A stretch of 31,794 bases of DNA from a virus, in IMG/VR virus record IMGVR_UViG_3300027749_000344, positions 1-31,794 of that record; one strand, given 5' to 3'. Below, one piece after another: positions 18,909-31,268 of this stretch. The notes beneath the pieces were generated by a model, which worked only from the letters and a program-made list of their open reading frames with translations, searched no databases and was not told where the DNA came from. The position numbers were made by a program, and so were the translations under genes. How positions within the stretch are numbered: position 1 is the stretch's first letter; every line of letters starts with the position of its first letter.

Positions 18909-20261
18909 CTAGGAGACGTATCTGAAGGGCTGGATTGAGCTTAGATAGTTGAACGCATCAGCAGCAGCATCAACTTGGTCATCATGTTTGCCGGTCGGGA
19001 ATGAGCACAGCTCGTCAATGAAGTCACGGTTCCAGTCGCCCTTTTCCAGCTCGATCGAACCAGATTCAAAAGCAGCGGCCATCGGCATCGCCCGCACTTC
19101 CTTGGAGCCTGTTGGTCGTTTGCTGATCACGCCATAACCGATCAGGTTACGAGTGTCATGCTGGACCTGATCCACACCAGCGGACCCGGGATCTTGTGCC
19201 AGGTGAACAATAGTTTCGCGCCCGTCAGTCTCGGCAATCTGGCGTTGGATTGTTCGACGTGTAGCCGGTGACCATTGGCCACGCGAAACGTGCTTAACCC
19301 TGTAAGTATCGCCGGTCCTGCACATCCACACACCGGCAGTGTAATCACCACCACCGACCGTGGCGGCTGTGTCCCATGCTCGGCATGAGTTGGAGTTGGG
19401 TGGGATCGGACCAGGCTCGACGATCTTGAACCATTCAGGCTTGAAAAAGCCTCCATCACGGGGCGTTGGTGTCTGTTGATACAGTGCCGAAAAGGCATAA
19501 GAGCCGACGGTCTTTTTGATCCGGTCGAAGTCTTCCACACTGTATCGTTCTGGCCAAAGCGCCTCACCAGGCTGACGGCCAATCAGGTCATCTTCCTCAG
19601 CGATGGCAGGCAGGCTCACCACATCCCACTGTTCGCCACCTTCATTGGCCTGTTCTAATAGCTGACCAGCCAAGTCAAGGCTGTGCCATCTGGTCATAAT
19701 CAGGACGATGGCAGCACCAGGATGCAGTCTTGTGTAGAGGTCGTTTTGATACCAGTCCATCACCCTGGCACGGTATGTTGGTGATTCAGCCTCAGCTCGT
19801 GACTTCACCGGGTCATCAATGATGACCAGGTCGGCACCATATCCAGTGACACCAGAGCCGACACCGACCGCATAAAGCCCGCCACCGTATTCAGACGACC
19901 ACTGATTTTGTTTATTCTGGTCGTCGGAAAAGTTAAAGCCAAACTCTTTGGCGATGCGTCGCGTTTGCCGGCTAAAGGTGCAGGCCAGCGAGTGGTTATA
20001 AGCCCCAATAATTATCCGTAAACCTTGATCCACCAATAATCTATAAGCCGCATAGTGAATCGTTGCCAGCTCGCTCTTGCCGTGCCTGGGTGGTAGGAAC
20101 AGCATCAACCGTTTGACATCACCGGTCGTCACCTTGTCCAGCGCCCGGCGGCATTCCGCCAAGTGTTCTGGCGACCACTGGTGATTCGGCTTTGCGGCTT
20201 GCAGGAACCGGTTTAGCCCCTTTGGGATCAACTGCCTGTCGTGGTGGGGTGTCGCACTCAT
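18909..20261 (-). CDS. Terminase large subunit
   Basis: The 450-residue protein has the full two-domain motor. ATPase: Walker A PPRHGKSE at 57-64, Walker B LVIIDD at 145-150, and coupling residues near MTRWHS at about 190. Nuclease (RNase H fold): RAWDTAA with Asp297, QDPGSAG with Asp357 and KHDDQVDAAAD near 427. All catalytic acids are present. It drives DNA packaging and cuts the concatemer. The N-terminus overlaps the small-subunit gene by 143 bases in another frame. Confidence 0.95.
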   Translation of the reverse strand: MSATPHHDRQLIPKGLNRFLQAAKPNHQWSPEHLAECRRALDKVTTGDVKRLMLFLPPRHGKSELATIHYAAYRLLVDQGLRIIIGAYNHSLACTFSRQTRRIAKEFGFNFSDDQNKQNQWSSEYGGGLYAVGVGSGVTGYGADLVIIDDPVKSRAEAESPTYRARVMDWYQNDLYTRLHPGAAIVLIMTRWHSLDLAGQLLEQANEGGEQWDVVSLPAIAEEDDLIGRQPGEALWPERYSVEDFDRIKKTVGSYAFSALYQQTPTPRDGGFFKPEWFKIVEPGPIPPNSNSCRAWDTAATVGGGDYTAGVWMCRTGDTYRVKHVSRGQWSPATRRTIQRQIAETDGRETIVHLAQDPGSAGVDQVQHDTRNLIGYGVISKRPTGSKEVRAMPMAAAFESGSIELEKGDWNRDFIDELCSFPTGKHDDQVDAAADAFNYLSSIQPFRYVS

Positions 20262-22682: not shown

Positions 22683-22887
22683 TATCTGACTCCAGAGGGA
22701 TGTAGATTATCTCGCATTCCTCTCCCACATCAAGAATCCTTTCCTCAACCGCCATAGCAGGCACGCACTCGCCTATCCACTCGCCACATGGTGCAAGGTC
22801 TGCCAATCCACATCCGCAATCCTGAATACACAGTCCATCAGCGCCCATCTGCTCAAGCTGGTTCTTCAATATCTCAAGAGCTGTCAC
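22675..22887 (-). CDS. Small cysteine-rich phage protein
   Basis: The 70-residue product starts at a GTG with GGAGG five bases before it; this start overlaps the ThyX stop (GTGA). The middle has CIQDCGCGLADLAPCGE then WIGECVPA: a five- to six-cysteine motif seen in many small phage proteins of unknown role ('ADGL....CGC...DL.PC......C.PA'). It likely binds zinc. Confidence 0.75.
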   Translation of the reverse strand: MTALEILKNQLEQMGADGLCIQDCGCGLADLAPCGEWIGECVPAMAVEERILDVGEECEIIYIPLESDNE

Positions 22888-23648
22888 ACTTTCCTCCAAT
22901 TCGTTTCGATTCCATTTTCAGTCACCGTGTAATCACCAAAAAGATTTGGCGATTCAGCCTGCAACACGTTCAAAACTGCAATTGCCAGCCGTTGAATTTC
23001 AGCGTCCGCATGTATCGAGCCACGCAATTCCAAGAAGTGCCGCCATGCTCTGGCATTACCTGTCACGAAGATCTTGGTTTCAGTGCAATTGGGGAGGACA
23101 GCACGAGCGGCCTCGCGAGATTTCTTGCGTCGAAGTGTCGGGCTGTCGATGTCGGCAAAGTCGTTGTATTCCAGCGTTTCGCACAGCGCCTCGTAATGTC
23201 CCTGCGCTCGGCCAATGGCCTGAGCCCAGATCGCTTCTGGCGTGCTTCCCGGCTTAATGCCTGGTGGTCGCACAAACGCACAGTCCGACTCGTCCACATA
23301 TCGTTGACTTAGCTGGCTGTAACTCATCCCAGCACGATGTCTGACCAGCTCGTGAGTCAATGACCGTGAGACGCCAGTGAAGATCATCGAGTAAACAGCA
23401 TGCTCAAGAACTGAGCCGTGGCCCACTTCCAAGATGTGGTCGATATAAGCTTTGTTCCCACCTGGTCGAGGTTTGGCAAAACTCATGTAGCACAATCGGC
23501 CAGCGATCTCCACAAGATGTTCGCTAGCATTGTCAGTGTCGCTGTTCCAATGTTCGACTCCGTGAGCTTCAAGGAACTCGGCACAATCAAGGCTGTTGAG
23601 TTCTTGTTTGCCGACCAGGTAGACGGATGGTTTTGTGATGATGTTCAT
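22884..23648 (-). CDS. thyX: FAD-dependent thymidylate synthase ThyX
   Basis: The 254-residue enzyme carries the ThyX motif RHRAGMSYSQLSQRYVD (Arg103-His104-Arg105, then eight residues to Ser114 and Arg116), matching RHRX7-8S. VLEHAVYSMIFTGVSRS just before and ARAWRHFLELRGSIHADAEI near the C-terminus are further conserved parts. It makes dTMP from dUMP using methylene-tetrahydrofolate and FAD, supplying thymidine for phage DNA. The ATG overlaps the preceding stop (ATGA). Confidence 0.95.
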   Translation of the reverse strand: MNIITKPSVYLVGKQELNSLDCAEFLEAHGVEHWNSDTDNASEHLVEIAGRLCYMSFAKPRPGGNKAYIDHILEVGHGSVLEHAVYSMIFTGVSRSLTHELVRHRAGMSYSQLSQRYVDESDCAFVRPPGIKPGSTPEAIWAQAIGRAQGHYEALCETLEYNDFADIDSPTLRRKKSREAARAVLPNCTETKIFVTGNARAWRHFLELRGSIHADAEIQRLAIAVLNVLQAESPNLFGDYTVTENGIETNWRKV

Positions 23649-24415
23649 GATGTAACCTTTGCATAACTCATGGGCGAGGTCTCGCTAGAAAAGTGTTCAA
23701 TTCCTGAAAACAGGGTTTCTTGAATGGCTATTGGTTGTGTTTTAAACCATCCAACAACCAGCCAGTTATTGCGGAAGTTCAGCATATTTCCGACGATCAA
23801 AAAATGGTGTGGATTCTGCTGCAATCTCATTGCATTGAAAACGCTTAATGCATCCTGCTGATTTTTTCGCAGGTATTCCCAAACGCCCCATTCACGAACC
23901 TGAATTTCATGTGATCCACCTGTGTCCGAGAACTTAAGGTATGGTACAAAATCAGCTTTGTATCCAAGGCTTTGGTAGACATCGTCAAATAATTCCTGCT
24001 GATGTTGCGAGATAACACCATTGTTGACGTGTATTTTCCCAACAAGGTCGGCCCTGATCACCCCGATTGACTTCTTTTGTTGGTTGAGCAATTTGATTGA
24101 ATCGCCTTCATGCTTTTTAAGGATCTGAAATATTTCCTTGTCAGCCTGAAGCGACTTAGGCGATTCGCGGACATTTGTTATCGAAGTTTCTGGATCTCGA
24201 AGTTTCCATGACTCCTTTCGACTGTCTAAAGTATTTCGGATCAGATCTAGATTGCATCTGTAACGCATCCTCACAGGATTGTTTGTCATCAGCGGGTAAA
24301 CACGGATGAATTCACGCAACTCTGGCGAATAAAAGATGCTGCAAACCTTGCGACCATACTTTTTTGAGTCTTCTGGTACAGTCCGTCCAAAACAAATGCA
24401 GTCTTCCAATATCAT
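23645..24415 (-). CDS. Conserved unknown protein
   Basis: The 256-residue protein begins ILEDCICFGRTVPEDSKKYG, then VCSIFYSPELREFIRVYPL and NPVRMRYRCNLDLIRNTLDS. The start (a short Cys.C motif, TVPE.SKKYG, R.YPL) has the look of a family of uncharacterised proteins found on mobile elements; I cannot name a function. A charged helical middle is followed by a HHFLIVGNMLNFRNNWLVVG strand pair. It is coupled (ATGA) to both the DUF4326 fusion and ThyX, suggesting shared use in nucleotide or DNA metabolism. Confidence 0.7.
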   Translation of the reverse strand: MILEDCICFGRTVPEDSKKYGRKVCSIFYSPELREFIRVYPLMTNNPVRMRYRCNLDLIRNTLDSRKESWKLRDPETSITNVRESPKSLQADKEIFQILKKHEGDSIKLLNQQKKSIGVIRADLVGKIHVNNGVISQHQQELFDDVYQSLGYKADFVPYLKFSDTGGSHEIQVREWGVWEYLRKNQQDALSVFNAMRLQQNPHHFLIVGNMLNFRNNWLVVGWFKTQPIAIQETLFSGIEHFSSETSPMSYAKVTS

Positions 24416-25233
24416 ATGTCAAACTCCTTAATCAAGATGTGGCCGTGGCATGGTTCTGGATAGCACCAACAGCCCATAATCCGACCACGAAGCGATTGGT
24501 GAGTGAGTTTTCGCAGACTAGGCTTTTTCGTAAGATAATCAGCGTAGTTAGCGATAACGGTTTCACGGTCGCCGTCTTCGTCCAGAACAAAGGGATTTCC
24601 CCATATAGAGTTGCGGTCAATGCGGCAGTAAATACCCTCCGCCTGTGCTACCTTAATCAAGGCTGAATCTGTGTGCTGATTCGCTAGTTGACCGTAGCCC
24701 ATTTTCGCCAGTCTTAATCGGCGTTGCTGATCTTCAGTCAGACCGCTCAAGTCTAATTCCGTTGGGGTAGTCTTAGCCTGGTTGAAACTGGCTTTCGCTT
24801 CCTTAACATCGCGACTGTTGATCGTGTCGCGGCCATGCTCAGCAGCAATCGCCTTGGCTTGCTCGGCTATTGCTGGACGATCTTCGGCAGAAACCGAGAT
24901 GAACTCTCGTGCTGTCGTCTCGTTAGGAATGTTAACGGTCGTTAACAGTTCTCCAGCAATCGCAGCGGATTGGATCTGCATGTGCGCGAAATTTCGACTA
25001 AATCCCCACTTGCTCTGGCAATATTCCTCGAAAGTGTCAAACTCGCCTCGATAAAGCCGTTTGACCCTGATTTCCATCAAGGCTGTTCCGACTTCAACAA
25101 ACGCTTGCTTGCCGCGATTGATGACGGTTTCAAGTTGTTGCAGCTTTGTTTGTTCAAGCTCGCTTAATGATCCAGCGATAATCGTAGGATCAACGATATT
25201 AATTTCAGATTCATTCACTGGTGACAACTCCAT
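24412..25233 (-). CDS. ParB-like/DUF3102-type domain fused to DUF4326
   Basis: The product has 273 residues. Residues 30-150 contain LMEIRVKRLYRGEFDTFEEYCQSKWGFSRNFAHM-like helical sequence typical of plasmid and phage proteins related to ParB/DUF3102 N-terminal regions. Residues 200-273 hold a DUF4326 domain: IDRNSIWGNPFVL (211-215) and CWCYPEPCHGHIL (Cys255, Cys257, Cys262, His263). Between them is a short linker. The fusion joins a likely DNA-binding module to a domain of unknown, possibly base- or nucleotide-related, activity. The ATG at 25233 lies inside the csrA gene. Confidence 0.75.
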   Translation of the reverse strand: MELSPVNESEINIVDPTIIAGSLSELEQTKLQQLETVINRGKQAFVEVGTALMEIRVKRLYRGEFDTFEEYCQSKWGFSRNFAHMQIQSAAIAGELLTTVNIPNETTAREFISVSAEDRPAIAEQAKAIAAEHGRDTINSRDVKEAKASFNQAKTTPTELDLSGLTEDQQRRLRLAKMGYGQLANQHTDSALIKVAQAEGIYCRIDRNSIWGNPFVLDEDGDRETVIANYADYLTKKPSLRKLTHQSLRGRIMGCWCYPEPCHGHILIKEFDI

Positions 25234-25405
25234 TATTCCGTTGTTTCGCTTCCCACACTTCCAGCCGATCCACTCTGACTTCAAGTGGAGCTTCGACACC
25301 AATCTTGACCTTGTCGCCCCTGATCTCAGTGACGCAAACCCTAAATTGAATGGAACCGTAGTTAATGACAAGGACTTCATTGACCTTCCGTGATAGCACA
25401 AGCAT
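25211..25405 (-). CDS. csrA: CsrA-family translational regulator
   Basis: The protein has 64 residues and matches CsrA throughout: MLVLSRKVNEVLVI, then VTEIRGDKVKIGVEAP and VRVDRLEVWE. Leu4 and Arg6 of the RNA-binding N-terminal strand and the region of Arg44 are kept. CsrA dimers bind GGA motifs in mRNA leaders and control translation or stability. GGAGG lies six bases before the ATG. Here it heads a gene cluster after a tRNA-like element. It may redirect host mRNAs or act on phage transcripts. Confidence 0.93.
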   Translation of the reverse strand: MLVLSRKVNEVLVINYGSIQFRVCVTEIRGDKVKIGVEAPLEVRVDRLEVWEAKQRNNGVVTSE

Positions 25406-25774
25406 GTGTAACCTCCGTGATGCGTTTGATTTGATGCCGGGAGTGGTCAAACTCCCGGCGCGAGTATGATCAGTCAACTCCCCCTGGTATCCTTGTGAGT
25501 TCGGCAGGCTGATTGCCCACGAACAAACTCGAATCAACCAACTAGGAGTCTGTCAGCAGGCTCGATATCGGTCGGCCTCTGACAAGTCGCGTGTAGGAAT
25601 CGAACCTACCGAAAGCCCTATTGGTAAGGGCTATTGCCCAGCCGCGACAAATGCCATCCTTGGCGACCATCACCATCCATGAATCCCGTTTGACATCTGC
25701 TCATTACTGATCGCGCTCACGAACCTTCGCCACAGATGTCACCGCCACAGTCACCGGAGTTCCAAGCCTCTCTT
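25406..25774. other. Longest intergenic stretch, with a tRNA-like element and small frames
   Basis: These 369 bases hold the tRNA-like element at 25585-25648. Two small minus-strand frames cannot be excluded: a 27-codon frame that begins inside the end of the gene at 25775 (MNQSRQAAKREAWNSGDC...) and a 28-codon frame that runs into the tRNA-like element. Neither has a good ribosome site. Otherwise I see nothing. Confidence 0.5.
25585..25648 (-). tRNA. tRNA-like element lacking a normal D arm
   Basis: On the minus strand GTCGCGG pairs with ACGCGAC at six of seven positions. The T arm is perfect: GTAGG, TTCGATT, CCTAC, matching the internal B box. A 6-bp anticodon-like stem AGCCCT/AGGGCT closes the loop TACCAAT, but residue 33 is not U in that register. 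Only nine bases (CTGGGCAAT) stand where a D arm of about 17 is expected, although GGGCAATAGCCC could form an alternative small D hairpin. Total about 64 bases, with no encoded CCA. It may be a degraded phage tRNA, a mimic, or a scar of an attachment site. Confidence 0.5.
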
Positions 25775-26028: not shown

Positions 26029-26346
26029 TTAAAATCTTGAACTTGAAGGAGTGCCAGCCCAGGCAAACCGATTTTCCCAGTATTCGTCGCCTTCCCACCA
26101 TTCTGGTGGCATAAAGCAATCGACCTCGTCAATCACTTGCCACTCAAGCCAATCAGGGTTGTCGAGCCGAATGACTGCTTTCTTTGCATCTCGAATGGCT
26201 CGCTCGTTTTTCAGATCGCAAAGGTGTTCGGCATAGGTCTTGGCTGGAAAGGATTTCGCCAGAATCTCAGCCCCGACTTCGTCCGAACACTTGCGTTCCT
26301 TTGAGTAGAGCCTTGCAAGCAAGGCCCCAATCTCTGGTGATGTCAT
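26029..26346 (-). CDS. Hypothetical protein
   Basis: The 105-residue protein starts with a TGATG overlap after the SSB gene. It is helical in the N-terminal half and rich in Trp and acidic residues in the C-terminal half (PPEWWEGDEYWENRFAWAG). No family recognised. Position suggests a partner of the SSB. Confidence 0.6.
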   Translation of the reverse strand: MTSPEIGALLARLYSKERKCSDEVGAEILAKSFPAKTYAEHLCDLKNERAIRDAKKAVIRLDNPDWLEWQVIDEVDCFMPPEWWEGDEYWENRFAWAGTPSSSRF

Positions 26347-27074
26347 CAGAATGGCACCCCATCAACTTCATCGTGTGGATCGAAGGCGTGCCCACTTGTG
26401 CGAGTCTGGTCAAGATGTTGTTTCATGCCCCGATCCGCATCCGTTTCAGTCGCTCCACCACCTGGCCGAACTTGCATCCGGCCTCTCAAATGTGGTGCGA
26501 CCTCCACAGACTTAGGAAGGTCCGACACAGGATTGAAACCTGTGGAGCCGCCGAACGATTCGCCGTCAGCAAGTTTCATGAAGGCGACCAGGTAGAGAGA
26601 GACACCAATATTTTTTGTCACTTTATAGGTGGCCGGTGTCACCAACATTTGACCGATACAACCACCGTAAATTTCATTGCGATTGCTGATCGGTCTACCG
26701 TGCCTGTCAATCACCATAGGTGGCTTTGATTCGCCTGTGCTGGCAGAGATCACCCAACAGCCTGATTCGGCATGGCCAGTCTTAAGATTGCCATCCTTAT
26801 CAAGCAACTTGTCGCCATCTTTGATGCAACAATTTGTGTGGGTCGTCAGCTTTCGGTATTGTTGGCCAAAAGCAATCTCTGAGATTCTTTGCATCTCAGC
26901 AATTAATTCCTCCGGCATCTCAGACTTCAACAGCAAAATATTGGCCGAATAAAACAGCCTGTTTTGCTTGTACTCGTTGGCCTTTGGCTCAAAGAGATTT
27001 GGGTAGCTCAGGACACCCTGTGGGGTCCAAGTTTTGTGTCCATAAACCGAATCAATCTTGGTTGCTGTGCTCAT
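26346..27074 (-). CDS. Phage single-strand DNA-binding protein (DUF2815-like)
   Basis: The 242-residue protein matches the DUF2815 phage SSB group: LSYPNLFEPKANEYKQNRLF near the start, then EIYGGCIGQMLVTPATYK and NIGVSLYLVAFMKLADGESFGG. The C-terminus DPHDEVDGVPF is acidic and ends in a hydrophobic dipeptide, as do SSB tails that bind partner proteins (DDDIPF in bacterial SSB). It would coat DNA during replication by the primase-helicase system. Confidence 0.82.
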   Translation of the reverse strand: MSTATKIDSVYGHKTWTPQGVLSYPNLFEPKANEYKQNRLFYSANILLLKSEMPEELIAEMQRISEIAFGQQYRKLTTHTNCCIKDGDKLLDKDGNLKTGHAESGCWVISASTGESKPPMVIDRHGRPISNRNEIYGGCIGQMLVTPATYKVTKNIGVSLYLVAFMKLADGESFGGSTGFNPVSDLPKSVEVAPHLRGRMQVRPGGGATETDADRGMKQHLDQTRTSGHAFDPHDEVDGVPF

Positions 27075-28514: not shown

Positions 28515-28543
28515 TTTATACCTTGCCACCTTTCCACCTTCAA
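28515..28543 (-). promoter_or_regulatory. Leftward sigma70-like promoter for the early operon
   Basis: TTGAAG (28538-28543) and TATAAA (28515-28520) on the minus strand are separated by exactly 17 bp. The start would be near 28508, giving a 50-base leader before the first gene at 28458. CCACCTT occurs twice inside the spacer/-35 region and also at 31261-31267, near the right-end promoters. The iteron array lies just upstream. Confidence 0.6.
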
Positions 28544-28607
28544 TACCAAATACATAAAAATAGTAAAAAAGTTTAGAATGTATAAATATAAAGGTGTCTT
28601 TACAAAG

Positions 28608-28815
28608 TTAGTTCCAAAGTTAGTTTCACACCCCTTGGTTCCAAAACATGGTGAAACTACTTCCAAAGTGGTTCCACATTTCACGAAACATCTATTTTTA
28701 ATTGGTTCCAACTTAGTTCCAACTTGGTTCCAGCCTAGTTAGTTCCAACACAGGGGGGTATATATACCCCTGTTTGGAACTTGGAACTAACTCTCTGTTT
28801 GGAACTGGAACTTTG
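28608..28815. repeat. Iteron array: eight direct and several inverted 11-bp units
   Basis: Units of consensus TTRGTTCCAAM begin at 28608, 28635, 28657, 28668, 28702, 28713, 28724 and 28739; five of the gaps are exactly 11 or 22 bp or a multiple of it. Beyond the palindrome at 28755, inverted units (GGAAC at 28776, 28783, 28801 and 28807) follow, reaching into the end of the primase gene. An AT-rich stretch lies at 28548-28600. Iterons plus an AT-rich region and palindrome beside a primase gene are typical of a replication origin; an operator array for the promoter at 28515 is the alternative. Confidence 0.8.
28755..28770. repeat. Perfect 16-bp palindrome inside a larger inverted repeat
   Basis: GGGGTATATATACCCC is perfectly self-complementary. 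It is the centre of an imperfect inverted repeat from 28742 to 28780 whose arms contain opposed GTTCCAA/TTGGAAC iteron cores with one inserted base. The array changes orientation at this point, so the palindrome is its axis of symmetry. Confidence 0.9.
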
Positions 28816-30766
28816 GATCAAGCTGATAAAAACTACATGATTTTCCGGAAGGATATTTTTCATCCCAAGTCACAAGCTCCATCGTCGATACCATCGTTTT
28901 CAAGGCTCGATTGACGGTGCTCTTGGTGTGACCGTTCTCTTGTAGTTCAGCTTGTATCTCTCCCCAAGCGGCTTTCCCAAATGTCGTAAGATACTTCCTG
29001 ATTGCTTCTTCCGCCGCCGCCCGTGGCTTTACCTGCTTGTCATCACTGCTGTCTGATCCGGTCGTTGAATACTCCCACCCACATTCACCCTGACGGCCTT
29101 GGATCACTGGCAAGGCAAATCTATTCCACCTAGCCTTTACGGATTTGATAGTAATGCTCTGTTCGTCGTGGTCTTCTGCTTCCATGCGAATAACATGGTC
29201 ACAAGTCCGCCCCATGGCTCGTCCCCATGTTTCGCCCTGGCTGTTCAAGTGGCCGACCAGAACAACAGCCACGTTCATTTCGCGAGCCAGTTCACGAAGT
29301 GGCGATGCGATTTTGGCGACCTCCTGCGGATCTACCAGAGGTCGTGAGGAAGCGGCCATCAGCGTGTCAATCACCACCAGGCCAATCTTGTATCGCTCAC
29401 ACCAGAGGCGAATGATTGCGATGGTTTTGGGATCATCCAGATTTGTGAAGCCATACGGATCATTCTTTGGTCCAGTGAAGATCACGTTCTCTGGGTCGAT
29501 CCCAAAGGATTCGCTACACATCGCGACCTGATCCCAGTGACTGTCAGCAGCGACAAAGAGAATCTTTGAATCAATGTCCATAAAAATGCTGGTGCCGTCA
29601 GGCCACTTGAGATCATTGGACCACCTGCGACAAAGATCCATAAGCCATCTAGTTTTGCCAGTCCCTTCTTTACCTTCGACCAGGTGTAAGCCGCGTTTGA
29701 CAAACCAGCCTACGTTAGTTTCTGGATTGCCCCAAAGCCAAGTGCGTTCCTTCATCAGATCAAGAATGTCTCGTGCGTTGGAAGCGTCTGGCATGCCTTC
29801 AAAGAATTCCATTGGCACAGGCTCGACTGATAGTTGTGGTGCAGCTGCGCCGTTGGCCTTGGCAATCTGAATCAAAGTCCCAAACCGAATCTGCTTATCG
29901 CCGTCAGTTCGCTTAAAAGACCTCACTTTAATGGAACACTCTCCATCAATATGCTTTTCATGACGAGCTGACCACTCTTCCCAGAGTTCAGCCCCGTCTT
30001 CGCCAAACTTGTGGGTAAGTGCCATGCCTACCGCAAGCCATTTGTCGTAGTCTCCAAGTTGAGTGTCCAGATATCCTTTAGCGAGGACCATCTTGGCCCA
30101 CTCAAAATCACTGGAAACATTTCCGACCACAGGAGGAAAATCGACCTTCGGTTTCTCTGGTCGAGTGATCGCCTGAAGAATCGCCTGCTCTGCGGATTCT
30201 GGCAACGGTATCGGTGGCATAGGAATCGAAACACGCTTGCCATCGCTCGGAGCACAGGCCACCTGACTCCCAGCGTCAGCCAGGCCAACAAATATTTCGA
30301 TCTTTCCTTTTGATGGAAGCTCGATTGATTTCTTGCCTAATCGCCCCCATGCCTGAATGATAGAATCGGTCACCTGAAACCAGACATGGCAACCACCCTC
30401 CGTTTTGACAATCAGAGTTTCTGGCCAGTCGTCAGAACCGAACAGCAGTTGGGCGGACTCTTTCCAAGCATCGGGAAGAAACTTGGTATCTTTGTTGTAC
30501 GGGTCGATGTCAAACACGACATGACCAACAGGCTTGCACCCAATCCCAACAGGCACTCCATTCTGAAGATATCCGATCAATCGCTCACGCCATTGATCGG
30601 TTGTAACACGTTGCCATGGCTCATTTTTGCTGGCCATCGGTCGTTTAATCTTGCCATGCTTGTCTTCACCGTTGACAACTGGAAGCACCCCGATAGACAC
30701 AAGCGCCTCAAACGCTGCAAACAGATCGTTGCGAGCGCAGGCGTCAAAGTAATCTGGCCACGACAT
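28787..30766 (-). CDS. Primase-polymerase / RepA-type helicase fusion
   Basis: The protein has 659 residues. Residues 1-190: archaeo-eukaryotic-type Prim-Pol domain with VVFDIDPY (Asp86, Asp88) and GGCHVWFQV (His127). Residues 220-305: helical primase C-terminal (PriCT-like) region. Residues 340-560: RecA-like helicase with Walker A GKEGTGKT (365-372), Walker B GLVVIDT (Asp466) and VLVGHLNSQGETWGRAMGR. Residues 585-650: winged-helix-like end (AAWGEIQAELQENGHTKSTV). One protein could therefore prime and unwind. AGAAAGG precedes the ATG. The iteron array is directly beyond its stop, as expected for an initiator next to its origin. Confidence 0.9.
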   Translation of the reverse strand: MSWPDYFDACARNDLFAAFEALVSIGVLPVVNGEDKHGKIKRPMASKNEPWQRVTTDQWRERLIGYLQNGVPVGIGCKPVGHVVFDIDPYNKDTKFLPDAWKESAQLLFGSDDWPETLIVKTEGGCHVWFQVTDSIIQAWGRLGKKSIELPSKGKIEIFVGLADAGSQVACAPSDGKRVSIPMPPIPLPESAEQAILQAITRPEKPKVDFPPVVGNVSSDFEWAKMVLAKGYLDTQLGDYDKWLAVGMALTHKFGEDGAELWEEWSARHEKHIDGECSIKVRSFKRTDGDKQIRFGTLIQIAKANGAAAPQLSVEPVPMEFFEGMPDASNARDILDLMKERTWLWGNPETNVGWFVKRGLHLVEGKEGTGKTRWLMDLCRRWSNDLKWPDGTSIFMDIDSKILFVAADSHWDQVAMCSESFGIDPENVIFTGPKNDPYGFTNLDDPKTIAIIRLWCERYKIGLVVIDTLMAASSRPLVDPQEVAKIASPLRELAREMNVAVVLVGHLNSQGETWGRAMGRTCDHVIRMEAEDHDEQSITIKSVKARWNRFALPVIQGRQGECGWEYSTTGSDSSDDKQVKPRAAAEEAIRKYLTTFGKAAWGEIQAELQENGHTKSTVNRALKTMVSTMELVTWDEKYPSGKSCSFYQLDPKFQFQTES

Positions 30767-30950: not shown

Positions 30951-31127
30951 TTAAACCTTTAGTTCTTCCTGTTTAGCTTTAGGCTTATCGCTTAGCGTAA
31001 CCCCTAAAGCGTTTGCCAGTATTGACTCAATGATATGACTACGAAACTGTTCTGTGTCATATGCCTGTTTGCGAATCGCAGAATAAACAGTTGCATCGAC
31101 ATAGAGGATGAGCTTTTTCTTTGGCAC
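30951..31127 (-). CDS. Small DNA-binding protein, RHH-like, possible early regulator
   Basis: The preferred start is a GTG at 31127 with GGAG eight bases upstream, giving 58 residues: VPKKKLILYVDATVYSAIRK, then QAYDTEQFRSHIIESILANA. A basic N-terminal strand (KKKLILYVDATVYSAIRK) followed by two helices fits a ribbon-helix-helix or related small repressor. The frame is open from a TTG at 31178, but that start lies within the promoter. The promoter spacer contains a perfect inverted repeat, suggesting autorepression or control by the opposite gene. Confidence 0.6.
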   Translation of the reverse strand: MPKKKLILYVDATVYSAIRKQAYDTEQFRSHIIESILANALGVTLSDKPKAKQEELKV

Positions 31128-31168
31128 AGTTCTTCTCCGTGTTTGAGCTTTAGTTAACCGACTAAACA

Positions 31169-31197
31169 AATATACCAAGGTATCTTGGTACTTTCAA
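31169..31197 (-). promoter_or_regulatory. Leftward promoter with an operator-like palindrome in its spacer
   Basis: On the minus strand TTGAAA (31192-31197) and TATATT (31169-31174) are 17 bp apart. Nearly all of the spacer is the inverted repeat TACCAAG-GTAT-CTTGGTA (31173-31190; perfect 7-bp arms). A protein bound there would block RNA polymerase. The predicted start is near 31162, 35 bases before the GTG. Confidence 0.7.
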
Positions 31198-31201
31198 CCT
31201 A

Positions 31202-31268
31202 AAAGGTGGCTTTTTTGCTACGAGACAAAAGATTGTTGCGGACTCGTCACTTGTGACAAACCACCTTT
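31202..31268. promoter_or_regulatory. Nested inverted repeats between divergent promoters
   Basis: AAAGGTGG (31202-31209) is mirrored by CCACCTTT (31261-31268). Between them lies the 12-bp sequence GTCACTTGTGAC (31246-31257), with 5-bp arms and a TT centre. ACTTGTGAC recurs at 455-463 and CCACCTT near the promoter at 28515. These are candidate operators shared among three phage promoters. Confidence 0.55.

Follow-up and report, generated by a model that had tools for sequence, protein, structure and literature searches.

A probable phage replication origin of facing iteron sets behind a primase-helicase gene, exchanged among relatives with a winged-helix domain

The repeat array at the end of the initiator gene

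The window analysed here is a 31,794-bp IMG/VR virus record (a phage contig). A gene on its minus strand (28787–30766), which we refer to as the initiator gene, encodes a protein of 659 aa made up of Prim-Pol, PriCT_2, a RepA/DnaB-like (AAA_25) helicase and a C-terminal winged helix (Pfam). In the translation, both the Prim-Pol motif FDID (aa 85–88) and the Walker A motif GKEGTGKT (aa 365–372) are intact. Pfam assigned the helicase part to AAA_25/DnaB_C and the A1 profile matched DnaB structures; by its AAA_25 match, the helicase belongs with the RepA-like hexameric helicases of RecA fold.

The end of the initiator gene is overlapped by an array of short repeats. Seven exact GTTCCA units were present on the plus strand, starting at 28611, 28638, 28671, 28705, 28716, 28727 and 28742. 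Read on the strand of the gene (minus, 28611–28747), these are TGGAAC units at +15, +30, +41, +52, +86, +119 and +146 from the centre of a palindrome, GGGGTATATATACCCC (28755–28770). The palindrome is perfect over its 16 bp and marks an axis of inversion; no other perfect palindrome in the 31.8-kb contig is as long. On its other side are four exact TGGAAC units on the plus strand (28775–28811, with starts at 28775, 28782, 28800 and 28806), such that the direct and inverted sets (7 + 4 exact units) face each other across GGGGTATATATACCCC.

An earlier note on this DNA, made from the letters alone, had described direct units, a perfect 16-bp palindrome and inverted units, and this description proved correct, with a unit count far above that in shuffled sequence. 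The array holds 11 exact hexamers within 210 bp. In 100 dinucleotide shuffles of the whole contig, the biggest cluster of any 6-mer was 6 (in one shuffle), compared to 11 in the array, and in local shuffles of the array 0.27 copies were expected, with a maximum of 3 in 1000 shuffles. We found no second cluster of units anywhere in the window, and scans with Rfam and for tRNAs gave no match.

Some details of that description had to be adjusted. Eight direct units had been counted; seven are exact, and two further ones are degenerate (GTTTCA at 28622 and CTTCCA at 28660). The spacings between the exact direct units are 27, 33, 34, 11, 11 and 15, and of the many spacings of 11 or 22 bp that had been claimed, 11 occurs twice and 33 is three times 11, but 22 appears only if the degenerate units are included. 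Short direct repeats with helical-phase-like spacing, as expected of iterons, are thus present, with the spacing just partly regular. The AT-rich tract within the array is short (28690–28701); the main tract, a possible melting region, lies outside the array (28545–28600), towards the early promoter. The array had been said to touch the primase gene, and it does more than that. The inverted units at 28800 and 28806 are the initiator codons for FQFQ, the tail of the protein, and the unit at 28782 overlaps the stop codon. The contact is with the 3' end of the gene and not with a 5' promoter. An iteron origin has its cognate initiator encoded beside the units, and here the primase-helicase gene overlaps them. 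The palindrome and its flanking units are predicted to form a hairpin of −13.8 kcal/mol (z −4.4 to −5.5), making a role in priming or as a cruciform possible.

The array adjoins an early promoter, as the earlier note had proposed: about 70 bp past the array is a promoter-like site on the minus strand (TTGAAG-17-TATAAA, 28515–28543, read from the sequence). A promoter scan made no call on the minus strand at this site. At the equivalent position, the class B and class C relatives described below have strong promoters of the TTGAC type. An operator-like sequence, CCACCTTTCCACCTT (28526–28540), composed of AAGGTGG units, lies in the early promoter and is common to the region upstream of a gene for a small RHH-like regulator, where the operator-like GCCACCTTT is found (31202–31210, minus strand). 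The RHH-like gene (30951–31178, minus strand) opens the primase operon; its product is a putative reader of the promoter operators. Pfam gave RHH-family matches for two of its counterparts, and no significant match for the copy in the window.

Other early-region genes on the minus strand encode a ThyX-type thymidylate synthase (22884–23648), a DUF4326 domain protein (24412–25401) and an Enc34-type ssDNA-binding protein (26346–27074), which is likely a replication partner. The phage also encodes a CsrA-like global regulator (25211–25537, minus strand; Pfam CsrA), whose conservation among relatives varies (21–91%).

Unit classes and the winged helix among relatives

The layout of the array was the same in the relatives of the window, with different units. 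We found 21 relatives, 20 of which reach the 3' end of the initiator gene, and all 20 have the same layout in the same place. There are three versions of the unit among them: TTGGAAC(C/T)AA in class A, which includes the window, TTGGGACTAA (with a TTGGGAC core) in class B, and TTGAGAA(A/T) in class C. Each array is of a single class, indicating that the units change all together. Across classes, the units occupy offsets of +15–19, +30–33, +41–44, +52–54, +86–89, +119–120, +133–135 and +143–147 from the palindrome centre, with some classes having no unit at some of these offsets. Offsets agreed between classes to within 2 bp in 6 or 7 of 7 cases, compared to 1.8–2.5 for random placement (P = 0.0001–0.007). 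That this grammar is kept while the letters are exchanged requires a common reader. One class A relative (L004) and one class B relative (L011) share IMG sample 3300034107, that is, one metagenome, which would fit incompatibility groups in a shared habitat.

The C-terminal 80 residues of the initiator were modelled as a winged helix by AlphaFold2 (mean pLDDT 80, and about 86–92 in the core blocks). The domain spans aa 582–649 (28820–29023, minus strand). Comparison with the PDB gave wHTH regulators (PadR, HxlR, MecI and BlaI; Z about 10), and TubR and the pNOB8 centromere-binding protein were also among the fold matches. Fold likeness alone is no proof of function.

The winged helix was the sole domain of the initiator that tracked the unit class, in a protein whose identity to relatives is a mosaic along its length. 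Comparing the window with L018 (class C), the AAA domains are 100% identical and the C-terminal domains 27%; comparing it with L012 (also class C), the Prim-Pol domains are 96% identical and the C-terminal domains 21%. A single base separates the class A unit from the class B unit, and the corresponding winged helices are 53–56% identical. The class C unit is very different, and its winged helices are 21–27% identical to that of the window. On trees of each domain, the class label changed five times for Prim-Pol, five times for AAA, and twice, the minimum, for the C-terminal domain. When 48 pieces of window genes were compared with eight near-complete relatives, the winged helix and the RHH-like gene alone tracked class A. 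Because the winged helix changes with the units and the neighbouring domains do not, we infer that the winged helix reads the units and that the array is its origin. The winged helix adjoins the array, and linkage could explain part of the co-inheritance; it leaves the concerted change of all units unexplained.

The boundaries of the exchanged segment were visible in the DNA. The window and L018 are 90–96% identical to about bp 1700 of the initiator gene, 4–50% identical across the C-terminal domain, the array and the promoter, and 84–91% identical past the promoter. Judging from these alignments, the C-terminal domain and the array are a cassette that is swapped between phages and would reset which initiator fires which origin. 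Natural exchange of this putative reader and its origin is evidenced among the relatives.

The predicted recognition helix spans aa 615–627 (28886–28924, minus strand). At residue 619, class A has Asn, class B Asp and class C Tyr; the next residue, Arg620, is invariant. L029, with a winged helix 49% identical to that of the window, has class A units and Asn619 as in the window. Residue 619 could bear on unit specificity, which we take as a lead and not as proof. The relatives supply matched and mismatched pairs of reader and units, including those with Asn, Asp or Tyr in the recognition helix, and so make initiator-origin specificity and its exchange testable.

The array as an origin, and alternative explanations

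We consider it highly probable that the array is the replication origin of the phage, placed directly behind its own initiator gene and with two facing sets of sites around a GC-clamped TATATATA palindrome. The earlier note had recognised the organisation of an iteron origin, and this reading is supported by the unit grammar, the concerted switching and co-inheritance of units and winged helix in the relatives, the predicted winged-helix fold, and the recurrence of similar arrays behind AAA_25 genes in unrelated phages (see below).

For binding, ring loading, palindrome opening, priming and directionality, we infer the following course. The winged helices of several initiators would dock on the units, and the two facing sets would gather two helicase rings, one on each side of the axis. 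Either the TA palindrome or the adjacent AT tract would then open, perhaps as a cruciform, and the rings would load and run outwards in opposite directions, with the Prim-Pol domain priming on the exposed strand or on a hairpin.

The units might instead be operators, with a repressor or activator controlling the neighbouring early promoter and the primase merely adjacent. The short distance to the promoter-like site is consistent with this, as is the finding that the RHH-like gene also tracks class A among the near-complete genomes. However, the winged helices of L012 and L016 are identical and their arrays nearly so, yet the two differ in their RHH-like proteins and promoters, and on this ground we rejected the RHH-like gene as the iteron reader. 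In several lineages, moreover, the promoter has operators of its own, and the same sequences are found again ahead of the RHH-like gene: AACTAGT (L012 and L019), TTCGAA (L018), ATACGTATATTACG (L008 and L014) and AAGGTGG (the window). The type of RHH-like gene varies among relatives independently of the iteron class, and the first downstream genes do not correlate with the unit class. We regard control of the promoter through the units as improbable. The earlier suggestion that small regulators read the array was not borne out, in that the RHH-like gene varies with the promoter operators and not with the array. Since the RHH-like gene follows the promoter and the winged helix follows the units, the module seems, from these sequence patterns, to consist of two independent lock-and-key pairs, the winged helix with the iterons and the RHH-like protein with the promoter operators.

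Iterons of plasmids often also restrain initiation, and in phage P4 there are iterons at a second site, crr. By analogy, the array could be a site of replication control or silencing for the same winged helix (by handcuffing, or as a crr-like second locus), with initiation elsewhere. The GC skew, proposed earlier as a check, had its minimum about 2–5 kb from the array, on the side of the primase start and not at the array, as such a site would allow; the skew is confounded by gene direction, and for both reasons we dropped it as proof of an origin. A control site is nevertheless quite unlikely, given a window with a single unit cluster, a palindrome axis and facing unit sets that suit an origin, and SaPI origins that sit at this same place, directly behind the helicase gene. 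We think it very unlikely that the array serves partition or packaging (as a centromere, pac or cos site) and lies behind the primase by chance. Winged-helix and RHH proteins act as readers of centromere arrays too, and TubR and the pNOB8 protein are among the fold matches, but the window genes that we scanned include no recognisable partition protein, the terminase gene (18909–20261) is 8.5 kb away, and the array varies with a domain of the primase-helicase. There is next to no chance that the palindrome acts as an intrinsic terminator for the primase operon, with repeats that have no function. It can fold into a hairpin and lies 16 bp past the stop codon, but we rejected this reading because no T-tract comes after it; a terminator scan made no call there, and the unit grammar is conserved across classes. 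The replication origin remains our preferred reading of the array.

Known systems and similar arrays in other phages

The alpha protein of phage P4 combines a primase, an SF3-type helicase and an iteron-binding C-terminal domain in one protein, with crr as a separate site. The window initiator has the same fusion of primase, helicase and C-terminal domain, but no second site. The primase of P4 alpha is of the Toprim type, in contrast to that of pRN1 (PMC4234260). In pRN1, Prim-Pol, an SF3 helicase and a winged helix are parts of a single protein, ORF904, and a stem-loop origin follows its gene directly (PMC4234260). Fusion of Prim-Pol, helicase and C-terminal winged helix and the position of an origin with a stem-loop directly downstream are common to both systems, but pRN1 has an SF3 helicase and an essential long stem-loop without iterons, whereas the window has a RecA-fold helicase and clear iterons. 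At RSF1010 oriV, a RepA-type hexameric helicase acts with a primase and an iteron reader, and there are hairpins near the iterons (PMC4234260). These functions reside in three proteins (RepA, RepB' and RepC) in RSF1010; in the window, a single fused protein takes the place of RepB' and RepC, the separate primase and iteron reader, and the primase is Prim-Pol.

The closest functional precedent is provided by SaPI Rep/ori and SCCmec Cch2. The C-terminal domain of SaPI Rep and of SCCmec Cch2 binds iterons that lie immediately past the helicase gene (PMC7581432). An initiator helicase, short iterons right after its gene, and an associated or fused primase are common to these systems and the window (PMC7581432), and the C-terminal domain of the window helicase would likewise bind DNA. 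In the window, too, the putative origin is directly downstream of the helicase gene. The SaPI and SCC helicases, however, are of the DUF927 or Primase_Cterm/D5 families and the window helicase is of RecA fold (AAA_25/DnaB-like), so the window system would work like SaPI without being a member. It also differs in having a GC-clamped TATATATA palindrome at the axis and in occurring in tailed phages. By analogy, we view it as a RecA-fold variant of SaPI-like logic, which would mean that a RecA-fold helicase, too, can initiate by SaPI-like self-loading. We found no description of an origin behind AAA_25 phage helicases in the open-access literature, subscription papers being outside the search.

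For most phages, the origin is difficult to spot from sequence. We scanned IMG/VR for the bare palindrome, in two variants, and obtained 78 loci. Most of these have arrays of other units (TTCGGTACA, GGTCAAAA, TTTACCGTT, AGTTGGCA, TGCACGAA and GGACAAAA). In the independent lineages tested, Pfam identified AAA_25 in the gene ending just upstream of the palindrome, either alone (L027 and L100) or with PriCT_2 (L035), Toprim (L052 and L097) or DnaB_N (L054). L089 has AAA_25 with HTH_11 upstream of the palindrome and no array by the count used, and the upstream gene of L077 had no Pfam match. An AAA_25-like gene was within 500 bp in 47 of 65 loci with arrays and in 1 of 13 without (Fisher P = 2e-5), with the 47/65 and its P value inflated by many near-copies of one family. 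The C-terminal structure from L052 (Toprim+AAA_25 family) was left out on account of a poor model (pLDDT 39). Some loci (L028, L055, L062 and L068) have arrays without an adjacent AAA_25 gene. In L055, L062 and L068, the palindrome is accompanied by GGACAAAA units, and the neighbour in L068 is a terminase-like gene; these three arrays may have a different use or represent a displaced origin.

We also selected 12 named phages by helicase similarity, blind to repeats. Arrays of units were present behind the helicase gene in eight of them, several with a palindrome: Alteromonas XX1924, Salicola CGphi29, Idiomarinaceae 1N2-2, Roseobacter CRP-406 and CRP-831, Burkholderia BcepGomr, Rhizobium 16-3 (13 copies of GCGTGACA) and Salmonella FSL SP-031. 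The other four (phiHSIC, RW, ct76p945 and ctyzp037) have the helicase without an array. The segment behind the helicase gene was the strongest 8-mer cluster of the genome in 6 of the 12 and among the top three in 2 more. Origins of similar layout are apparently widespread in phages. A scan of genome contigs for a host or prophage gave nothing beyond one weak match, to AAA, from an Anaerolinea MAG.

Based on these comparisons, we propose with moderate confidence a widespread and undescribed class of phage origin, in which a RepA-type (AAA_25) helicase with a C-terminal winged helix is followed by iterons particular to the lineage, in many cases grouped about a GC-clamped TA palindrome. Reader and origin would form one recombination cassette, swapped independently of the primase, the helicase and the early-promoter repressor, and new replication specificities, and with them incompatibility groups, would result. 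Units around a palindrome behind an AAA_25-winged-helix helicase gene would then serve as a rule for recognising such origins.

The palindrome itself varied in its core (TATATATA, CTAAAG and CCCTTTAGGG), indicating that the recurring element is a pair of GC arms around a TA centre and not one fixed sequence. A scan with GGGGATATATATCCCC gave five loci and nothing more. Another palindrome, CCCCTATATATAGGGG, was intended as a compositional control, but the loci that it retrieved had this architecture themselves (L170, L181, L187, L192, L197, L205, L208 and L210), and it is therefore not neutral as a control. In L170, L181 and L208, this variant palindrome lies inside dense arrays of ACCCTCA, ACCCTTA or ACTGTGG.
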